A stretch of 33,816 bases of DNA from Treponema sp. (GTDB lineage: Bacteria > Spirochaetota > Spirochaetia > Treponematales > Breznakiellaceae): the NCBI GenBank assembly GCA_031280125.1, contig JAITHE010000094.1, positions 1-33,816 of the forward strand, in the 5' to 3' direction. Under the pieces are notes generated by a model that saw nothing but the letters and a program-made list of their open reading frames with translations, was not told the origin of the DNA and made no database searches. Made by a program: the position numbers and the translations under genes. This document shows positions 11 to 10,497 of the stretch, piece by piece. Within the stretch, counting starts at the first letter, position 1; every line of letters begins with the position of its first letter.

Positions 11-184
11 ATGGAAAAAATAAAAAACAAAGAGATAAAACTTGATTTATTTAAATTCACGGCTGAAATAAAGGAATGTTTAATAAAACATATAATAACA
101 TATGATAAAGAAACGGAAAAATATTTTAAAGAAGGGAAGGAGAAGAAAAAGAGGAAATGGACAGCCCAGCCCCGCAGCACATAA
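11..184 (+). CDS. Small AT-rich hypothetical ORF, possibly 5' truncated by the window edge (MEKIKNKEIKLDLFKFTAEIKECLIKHIITYDKETEKYFKEGKEKKKRKWTAQPRST)
   Basis: Read by eye in the frame starting at 11; open to TAA at 182-184. Not in the ORF track because it is shorter than 60 aa. Its stop lies inside the structured element that follows. Confidence 0.4.
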   Translation: MEKIKNKEIKLDLFKFTAEIKECLIKHIITYDKETEKYFKEGKEKKKRKWTAQPRST

Positions 185-334
185 CATACGGTACACGCTT
201 CGGCGGGGATAGGCCCCGCCTTCGGGGTTCACTGCGCCTAGGTCATGGCCTGCGGCCATTCCCACGGCTTCGTTCACCCACATTGCGGGCCGCCCGGTTA
301 GCGGCCCGCAACGTCGTATACCTAAAACGTTATG
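180..334 (+). repeat. attC-like / multi-hairpin imperfect inverted-repeat element
   Basis: Outer arms CATAAC (180-185)/GTTATG (329-334). Inner arms GGTACACG (190-197)/CGTATACC (315-322) pair at 7 of 8 positions, separated from the outer arms by short unpaired spacers. Internal hairpins include TTGCGGGCCGC(283-293)/GCGGCCCGCAA(301-311). Confidence 0.4.
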
Positions 335-389
335 CGAAATAAAAACCCAAATTTACGGAAAATATAAACGCCGCCATCCGTGGCGGCGT
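329..389 (+). repeat. Left arm of an inverted repeat bracketing the 452-1024 gene: GTTATGCGAAATAAAAACCC plus hairpin ACGCCGCCA-tccg-TGGCGGCGT
   Basis: 329-348 matches the reverse complement of 1066-1085 at 19 of 20 positions; hairpin at 368-389. Confidence 0.7.
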
Positions 390-451
390 AAAAACCATTG
401 ACTTAAATAAAACATTAGTTTATAATAACCATATTTATTGGGGGAAATACA

Positions 452-1024
452 TTGGACAATAAATGGTTTTCATATAAAAATATCCCAAATTCTCTGTTCT
501 TATTAAGGATGCTGCTTGTTTTGCCGTTTATACTAATAATTTATGATATTTTTGTTTATGAATGTACAAAAAACTTAGGTTTAGTGATTATTTTCTTCAC
601 GATAATAGTATCTGATATTGCCGATGGTTATTTGGCAAGAAAATTAAAATGTACATCAAAAGCGGGAGCAAAATTGGATGTAATTTCAGACACGGTATAT
701 ACAATTTTATCATTAACGGCTTTCGCGTATTTTAAAATTATTCCCGCATGGTTTATTTTTGTTATGATATTAAAGTTAATTGAATTTATTGTAACATCAA
801 AATTAATGAAAGAAAAACAAAATTCTGAAAAAGAAATGATTTTTGACAAAATGGGCAAAATGTCAGTTTGTATTGTGATGTTATTGCCGGGAATATTTGT
901 ATTTAGGTGTATAATAATAGATTATAAAATGGTAATGAATGTAACAATATACATTATAACAACAATGCTAATAATATCGTTTATAAATAGAATAAAAACA
1001 ACAATAGAATATATAAAAATATAA
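452..1024 (+). CDS. CDP-alcohol phosphatidyltransferase family membrane protein
   Basis: Contains the full motif D-x2-DG-x2-AR-x8-G-x3-D-x3-D (DIADGYLARKLKCTSKAGAKLDVISD); hydrophobic segments; TTG start preceded by GGGGGAAA. Confidence 0.85.
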   Translation: MDNKWFSYKNIPNSLFLLRMLLVLPFILIIYDIFVYECTKNLGLVIIFFTIIVSDIADGYLARKLKCTSKAGAKLDVISDTVYTILSLTAFAYFKIIPAWFIFVMILKLIEFIVTSKLMKEKQNSEKEMIFDKMGKMSVCIVMLLPGIFVFRCIIIDYKMVMNVTIYIITTMLIISFINRIKTTIEYIKI

Positions 1025-1034
1025 ATGAAGAGAA

Positions 1035-1085
1035 CGCCCGCCGTCCATGGCGGGCGCTTCGTAAGGGGTTTTTACTTCGCATAAC
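1035..1085 (-). repeat. Right arm of the inverted repeat: hairpin CGCCCGCC-gtccat-GGCGGGCG plus GGGTTTTTACTTCGCATAAC
   Basis: 1066-1085 is the reverse complement of 329-348 (19/20), and a similar GC-rich hairpin lies on the gene-proximal side. Confidence 0.7.
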
Positions 1086-1147
1086 AGGTCTGTTTACGCT
1101 GCGCCCGCAGTAGGCGGCTTGGTCTTTGCTGCGCAAAGCCCTCTACC

Positions 1148-1672
1148 TTGAAGGCGCACGGGGCGCGGCAGCTTATCGGGTTCGACATGAAGCACGTGTA
1201 CCTTTTAGGGCAAAAACACTACGCCTTGTGCGCCGTAGACCCCTACAACAAAGAGGCGGCGATACACGCCGCCGCCTCCCCCTCAAGCCGGAACGCCAAA
1301 ACCGCCTTGAAAAAGGCGGCTGCCCGCTTCGGAAAGGACATTACCGTGGTCAATGACAACGGCAGTGAGAACATGAAGGACGCCGAGAGCTATCTCGCCT
1401 CCCTGGACAGTACCCGGTACTGGACGCAGCCCACATCCCCCAAGGAAAAACCCTTTGTGGAGCGGCTCATCGGTACGCTTCAGCGGGAATGCCTTGATTA
1501 TCATTATGAACCGATGAACGTTGGGGAACTGACGGTAGACGTTGACGCGTGGCTGGATACATATCATTTTTACCGCCCCCATGAATCCCTGAACTTCTTG
1601 ACTCCGGCGGAGTTTTCCGCCACAGTGGGGCTATCCATTCCCAGAGCGCCGCCATATGGCGCAGTGTCCTAA
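1148..1672 (+). pseudogene. Truncated IS transposase, rve/DDE integrase core (IS481/IS3-like), N-terminal HTH region missing
   Basis: Motifs VDPYNKEAA, VNDNGSEN, PFVERLIGTLQREC and HESLNFLTPAEF typical of a DDE integrase core; no upstream HTH-encoding ORF in frame. Confidence 0.75.
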
Positions 1673-9769: not shown

Positions 9770-9856
9770 GGAGCGGTGTCCGAGCGGTTGAAGGAGACGG
9801 TTTCGAAAACCGTTGAACTCGCAAGGGTTCCGGGGGTTCGAATCCCCCCTGCTCCG
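9770..9856 (+). tRNA. tRNA-Ser (CGA anticodon)
   Basis: GGAGCGG...CTGCTCC acceptor stem, T-loop GGTTCGAATCC, anticodon loop tttCGAaaa, long variable arm. Confidence 0.95.
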
Positions 9857-9908
9857 TTAAAAATCTTTTAAGGAGATTTTTATGTTGGAGTGTTGTAAAA
9901 CAAATCTT
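9857..9908 (+). repeat. tRNA-trailer repeat copy 1 containing a terminator-like hairpin
   Basis: ttaaaaatcttttaaggagatttttatgttggagtgttgtaaaacaaatct is identical to the sequence at 10064-10114. Confidence 0.85.
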
Positions 9909-9978
9909 TAGGTAACTTAAGGCTCCCTGCGGATTCTAACGGGGACCAGATTTCGGGACAACCCGCAGGTTGCCCTTT

Positions 9979-10063
9979 GGAGCGGTGTCCGAGTGGTTGA
10001 AGGAGGCGGTCTTGAAAACCGTTGAACCGCAAGGTTCCGGGGGTTCGAATCCCCCCTGCTCCG
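9979..10063 (+). tRNA. tRNA-Ser (TGA anticodon)
   Basis: Same acceptor and T-arm architecture; anticodon loop tcTTGAaaa read as TGA; long variable arm. Confidence 0.95.
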
Positions 10064-10114
10064 TTAAAAATCTTTTAAGGAGATTTTTATGTTGGAGTGT
10101 TGTAAAACAAATCT
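10064..10114 (+). repeat. tRNA-trailer repeat copy 2
   Basis: Identical to copy 1 over about 51 nt. Confidence 0.85.
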
Positions 10115-10196
10115 ATCCGTCAGGAACGGGCTTGCATCCGGGTACAAATTTCTGTACTATAGCATCTGACAGAGCAGTCTTGCCGGCTGGTTTTTT

Positions 10197-10284
10197 GGAG
10201 CGGTGACCGAGTGGCCGAAGGTGGCTCCCTGCTAAGGAGTTGTGCCCCTAAAGGGTACCGGGGGTTCGAATCCCCCCTGCTCCG
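10197..10284 (+). tRNA. tRNA-Ser (GCT anticodon)
   Basis: GGAGCGG/CTGCTCC acceptor; anticodon loop ctGCTaa; long variable arm. Confidence 0.95.
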
Positions 10285-10334
10285 CTAAAAATCTTTTAAG
10301 GGGATTTTTATGTTGGAGTTTTACATCACAAAGC
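10285..10334 (+). repeat. tRNA-trailer repeat copy 3 (diverged)
   Basis: ctaaaaatcttttaaggggatttttatgttggagttttacatcacaaag resembles copies 1 and 2. Confidence 0.7.
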
Positions 10335-10410
10335 TCAAGACAACGGGGCAATTCAACGGACCGGCTTGATCATGGAGTCGGGCAGGTTGATCATGGGGTT
10401 GTACCCCTTT

Positions 10411-10497
10411 GGAGAGATGACCGAGCGGCCGAAGGTGCACGATTGGAAGTCGTGTGTACCCGGAAGGGTACCGAGGGTTCAAATCCCTCTCTCTCCG
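10411..10497 (+). tRNA. tRNA-Ser (GGA anticodon)
   Basis: GGAGAGA/CTCTCTCC acceptor; anticodon loop ttGGAag; GGTTCAAATCC T-loop; long variable arm. Confidence 0.95.

Follow-up and report, generated by a model that had tools for sequence, protein, structure and literature searches.

Integron integrases are described as needing an additional I2 domain that is exclusive to them (PMC4792948, PMC7790495), and the acquisition of this domain has been called a chicken-and-egg paradox for which intermediates are lacking (PMC7790495, PMC4792948). Surveys have taken the additional domain as the mark of an integron integrase (PMC2426708, PMC9668308), and in one of them only genes with the IntI-specific domain were selected (PMC2426708). 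Termite-gut treponemes have been reported without integrons (PMC3607928), and in Bacteroidota only one complete integron has been reported (PMC9024848). In searches of openly available papers, we found no description of integrons lacking I2. The closest described systems are the chromosomal integrons of T. denticola (PMC3607928), clusters of attC sites without intI, or CALIN (PMC9024848), the Xer/XerA recombinases (PDB 5hxy, 4a8e), and the integration of CTX-phi by XerC at a folded single-stranded dif site (PMC7790495, PMC4792948).

The window analysed here, a 33,816-nt stretch of DNA from a Treponema sp., holds in positions 11-1142 two attC-like sites, a complete cassette and the end of a further one, with the features given below (all on the + strand).

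11..184, +, 3' part of the first AT-rich cassette gene (60 codons visible, stop codon within R'')
179..335, +, first attC-like site (from motifs, folding and the relatives' sites)
179-185, +, R'' of the first site, ACATAAC
186-189, +, spacer of the first site, ATAC
190-197, +, L'' of the first site, GGTACACG
198-314, +, branched variable part of the first site
315-322, +, L' of the first site, CGTATACC
323-328, +, spacer of the first site, TAAAAC
329-335, +, R' of the first site, GTTATGC
329..1085, +, complete gene cassette (complementary ends of ~20 nt, A/C at position 11)
452..1024, +, CDP-alcohol phosphatidyltransferase family gene, 190 aa (Pfam PF01066, E 1.3e-18)
1079..1142, +, second attC-like site, left part only, resembling the relatives' complete sites (R'' GCATAAC at 1079-1085, spacer AGGT, L'' CTGTTTAC at 1090-1097, part of the variable region)
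1148..1672, +, IS transposase fragment (ORF with rve / rve_3 integrase core) cutting the second site short

The earlier note on this DNA had described arms, spacers and a stop codon lying inside a structured site, and every motif was found where it had been placed, with the stop TAA (182-184) inside R'' of the first site; the ORF that it ends (11..184) was assigned to no known family. The R''-L''-L'-R' layout with AAC/GTT cores and a folding bottom strand is that of attC, and crossover in the first site would lie between G329 and T330. In single-stranded DNA folding, the segment 178-338 reached -45.7 kcal/mol on its bottom strand, much better than its shuffles (-30.0 +/- 2.95 kcal/mol in 200 shuffles; z -5.3, no shuffle as low), and the top strand of the site reached -39.2 kcal/mol (z -3.6). 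An Rfam scan of the window returned tRNAs only and nothing in the attC-like region; a four-tRNA gene cluster lies at 9770-10497.

Save for position 11 (A vs G), the first 20 nt of the next unit (329-348) and the last 20 nt before 1086 are reverse complements, so that the start from 329, GTTATGCGAAATAAAAACCC, pairs with the end at 1085 (GTTATGCGAAGTAAAAACCCC read backwards) with this sole mismatch. This complementarity, which had been overlooked, shows that both ends belong to one cassette, and the matching ends around 329..1085 mark it, on the sequence, as one unit that had been joined at G^TT as a cassette. The AT-rich CDP-alcohol phosphatidyltransferase gene that had been proposed as its cargo is a real ORF with a clear family match, and the GC content is 28% in 336-1078 compared with 52% in the window from 1701 on. 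Over 50-70 nt the second site is 80-94% identical to the relatives' complete sites, and the match stops at ~1142; the right part is missing and the rve fragment then begins. In this way, the complementary ends and the sites shared with relatives bear out the earlier note's view of a mobile cassette with an attC-like site at each end and an IS remnant interrupting the second.

The source assembly of the window (2.43 Mb, 77% complete, the window being contig 76) matches the earlier impression of cassettes without a visible integrase, since the genome-wide search of this 77% complete assembly gave no integron integrase reaching the family cut-off. No close relative of the array recombinase described below was found in this genome either, the best matches being Xer-like. 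As a DNA query against its own genome the first site matched only itself, and the second site matched a few scattered sites, partial or complete: contig C47 has a complete site and a truncated left half, C35 a complete site and C31 a right part. Two of the scattered sites have altered right cores (GAAC|AATAG and GAAC|GATAT), perhaps marking joins to non-cassette DNA, and the scattered sites have the look of remnants or off-target insertions. A left half-site of this genome (L211, G000:C47:4234-4259), 26 nt identical to the second site of the window, likewise ends right after L'' and sits behind a 197-aa ORF. Attachment sites in a genome without a detected integrase resemble CALIN (PMC9024848), but the relatives' arrays come with an integrase, one that would escape searches requiring the IntI-specific domain.

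Single copies scattered through the window's own genome and GC-rich hairpins at gene ends would also be given by a structured intergenic repeat or terminator family with no cassette function. We regard this reading as hardly credible, because whole units match from start to end, the sites form arrays and are linked to one recombinase group, and the cassette-identity test contradicts it. Two of the findings that the earlier note would have held against its own proposal thus diverge: the genome indeed yields no intI, while the strict placement at cassette ends in relatives shows that the element is no scattered repeat unrelated to cassettes.

An array was found in the closed 4.65-Mb genome of a relative in the same family (G033), in which 40 sites and 40 cassettes extend over 39 kb, all on the same strand, with a gene for a 417-residue tyrosine recombinase directly upstream and in the same direction. 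The cassettes carry one gene each, nearly all in the direction of the array, and their cargo (GNAT acetyltransferases, PIN, HicB, NUDIX, peptidase S51, AAA and AbiC-like proteins) is the mix typical of sedentary integrons. An attI-like junction lies directly behind the recombinase gene, and the cassette start there fits the end of the first cassette; similar attI-like junctions or the start motif were detected behind recombinases in ~9 other spirochaete genomes. An attI beside the integrase with the first cassette at G^TT is therefore found in relatives, in full in G033, and is absent from the window itself. The recombinase gene directed toward the array, the order of attI and cassettes, the AAC/GTT cores, the G^TT boundary and the single forward gene per cassette are all shared with the chromosomal integrons of T. 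denticola (PMC3607928).

The first 21 nt of each unit were compared with the reverse complement of its last 21 nt for 38 units of G033. Start and end agreed in 84-100% of units at positions 1-16 and in 71-74% at positions 17-18, with agreement falling to chance by position 21, and position 11 was a fixed exception, a start A facing an end C (A/G mismatch) in 36 of the 38 units. By comparison, the two arms of one site, which derive from neighbouring units, agree in the fixed positions only and are at chance beyond the core. The first bases of a cassette are thus complementary to its own R'' both in the window and in G033. In a canonical control of two T. denticola-like arrays, agreement was 95-100% up to position 7 and 71% at position 8, and then at chance; as the control recovers the known 7-nt R box, the arm of the new class (~16-18 nt against ~7 nt) is more than twice as long. 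Most canonical cassettes are reported to pair over 9-11 nt (PMC2727003), so the arm length sets the class apart by degree, while the fixed position 11, the missing I2 and the missing bulges do so in kind.

Inverted ends of 16-20 nt and a recombinase related to XerA/XerC might also be expected of a transposon, a MITE or a dif module, the ~18-nt ends then being transposon terminal repeats or Xer/dif sites. This is very unlikely, because past GTTAnnnGnnAT the ends differ from cassette to cassette and match only their own partner, which speaks against a shared transposase or dif site; terminal repeats common to all copies were not found, and the units follow one another head to tail, each with one forward gene and separated from the next by a 150-nt hairpin.

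Against the integron-integrase profile the G033 recombinase scored 209.6 bits (cut-off 265), about equal to its score for XerA, and the low score is explained by a short IntI-specific insertion region in the alignment. This region has 56-62 residues in 18 of 18 related spirochaete proteins and 98 in 12 of 12 canonical spirochaete IntI, and its length is bimodal overall (55-67 residues in the array group and Xer, 98-99 in all IntI). The integrase with an additional I2 helix that marks canonical integrons was thus not found at the relatives' arrays. An AlphaFold model of the G033 recombinase was only middling (pLDDT 76, pTM 0.47), for which reason the absence of I2 rests on the alignment; the nearest structures are XerA and IntI4. 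Like Xer/XerA (PDB 5hxy, 4a8e), the array recombinases have the same fold and no I2 helix and are similar in sequence, but they keep an IntI-like SPLD tail, lie at cassette arrays, in many spirochaetes have a small N-terminal extension, and are separate from XerC/XerD on the tree. The extension, in the N-terminal ~100-145 residues ahead of the core-binding domain and containing a W-x-P/D motif, seems common to the I2-less array recombinases and canonical spirochaete IntI. In the phylogeny the IntI sequences all group in a single, fully supported clade, with I2-less proteins around it; the tree did not recover a monophyletic clade of array-bearing recombinases, as loci with the cassette signature are spread over the I2-less branches around the IntI clade.

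The sites themselves also differ from the attC of T. denticola. In spirochaetes they are ~100-190 nt long (55-68 nt is typical of the T. denticola type), with spacers of 4/6 or 3/7 and terminal pairing of ~16-18 nt as opposed to ~7 nt, and without extrahelical G/T. A single-base bulge on the R''-L'' arm, where canonical attC have extrahelical bases, was seen in none of the 40 G033 sites and in 31 of 32 canonical sites, the latter folded on the opposite strand and compared on the same arm. The lack of bulged bases fits the lack of the helix that docks them. The bottom strand was the more stable in all new-type sites tested (40/40, 26/26 and 9/9), and the pair at position 11 is A.C when the top strand folds and G.T when the bottom strand does; the G.T bias as such was dropped as a unique mark of the class, because an excess in the bottom strand is also present in canonical attC. 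The circle form, in which a G033 site is joined to the start of its own cassette, was more stable than the array form in 35 of 35 cases, by a mean of 11.9 kcal/mol. The link to T. denticola-type chromosomal integrons implied by the earlier note therefore could not be upheld, since the arrays of relatives adjoin a recombinase without the IntI-specific insertion and their sites depart from that type in arm length, spacers and extrahelical bases.

Relatives vary in what they retain. Some carry a canonical intI, none of which was found above E 1e-40 in closed G033, and one genome that is 98% complete (G009) has the sites and no such recombinase. Closed G028 has the array recombinase in broken pieces (L108, G028:C1:1987508-1988542, and G028:C1:3779645-3780242), with no site called by the site detector in the L108 region, and is probably a decayed system. 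At L107 (G029:C136) the array is on the strand opposite to the neighbouring I2-less recombinase, and the last site faces the end of the gene. At L110 (G056:C12:218000-227932), several near-identical sites with repeated junctions GTTATGTCGCTGATTTTTCTT stand behind an I2-less recombinase, in what looks like the same site duplicated repeatedly.

A genome scan with array recombinase proteins gave 80 named loci, 75 of them usable (59 without and 16 with the insertion), around which we searched within 1.5 kb of the recombinase for signature cassettes, that is, long arms with A/C at position 11. Since a loose scan (14 of 18 matches) let through many chance hits, we tightened the thresholds, required the position-11 signature and ran reversed and shuffled controls. 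Under these strict settings the real sequence gave 16 matches, the reversed sequence 1 and three shuffles together 3. At strict settings signature cassettes were found at 13 of the 59 I2-less loci and 0 of the 16 with the insertion (P-value only 0.058 for the 75 named loci alone), and at looser settings at 24 I2-less loci, some chance hits included, and none with the insertion. The strict 13 comprise L127, L133, L135, L151, L156 and L165 in Bacteroidota, L125 and L138 in Bacillota, L126 in Spirochaetota, L139 in Magasanikbacteria, L142 in Peregrinibacteria, L183 in a proteobacterium and L128 in a further bacterium. Signature cassettes beside I2-less recombinases are thereby found in several phyla, Patescibacteria and other spirochaetes among them. 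With seven spirochaete loci added, the counts are at least 20 of 77 I2-less loci and 0 of 28 true IntI loci (P-value = 0.0014, Fisher test). The signature is seen at only about a quarter of the I2-less loci, and contigs often stop just behind the gene. At L138, L139, L142 and L183 the array is placed as in classical integrons, upstream of the gene and pointing away from it.

Positions 11-1142 of the window are very probably a stranded piece of an integron-like cassette system of this I2-less class. Counting against this explanation are the lack of a detected recombinase of this kind in the window's own genome (77% complete) and in G009, the signature's presence at only about a quarter of the I2-less loci, and the sense of the G029 array, opposite to that of its own recombinase. 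The explanation was weighed against a remnant of a canonical integron (CALIN), with an I2-bearing IntI elsewhere or lost and the adjacent I2-less recombinases as bystanders; the R''-L''-L'-R' layout, the AAC/GTT cores, the crossover, the cargo and the bottom-strand bias are all integron-like, and canonical intI is present in some relatives. We consider such a remnant unlikely, though less so than the other alternatives, because closed G033 has 40 sites and no canonical intI but an I2-less gene exactly at the attI end, the long-arm signature occurs at no true IntI locus, and the sites lack the extrahelical bases that I2 docks. The cassette units, the G^TT boundary, the order at attI and the linkage to an I2-less recombinase can be read directly from the DNA, from which we infer recombination by the I2-less system. 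The system works like an integron and is a new variant, not classed as a canonical integron because a defining feature, the I2 insertion, is lacking.

In the relatives, a tyrosine recombinase of the I2-less class would insert cassettes successively at an attI-like site just behind its gene, exchanging one attI strand with the folded bottom strand of the cassette site, as IntI does. The bottom strand would be recognised by the asymmetric spacers (4/6 or 3/7) and G.T pairs and not by I2 docking of flipped bases. Because the two arms of a site in the array come from different cassettes, the long arms pair fully only in the excised circle, so the circle site would fold better than the array site and integration would be favoured over excision. 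A folded single strand acted on by an I2-less Xer-type enzyme is also known from CTX-phi (PMC7790495, PMC4792948), which has no array or dedicated integrase with attI; the present system, in contrast, unites the enzyme gene with many cassettes at a single locus.

The broader proposal is, in our judgement, evenly balanced: that these loci form a widespread integron class without I2, sister or ancestral to IntI (in Spirochaetota, Bacteroidota, Bacillota, Patescibacteria and others), in which spacer asymmetry and G.T pairs determine strand choice and long cassette-specific arms make the free circle the preferred substrate, and which would supply the intermediate so far lacking from the origin of integrons. 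Arrays of hairpin cassettes beside I2-less integrases are directly testable candidates for the missing intermediates. Surveys picking integrases by the I2 domain are suggested to have missed a class of gene-capture systems, which would include relatives of the termite-gut treponemes (PMC3607928) and Bacteroidota (PMC9024848). The system may show how integrons work without I2, or how integrons arose.
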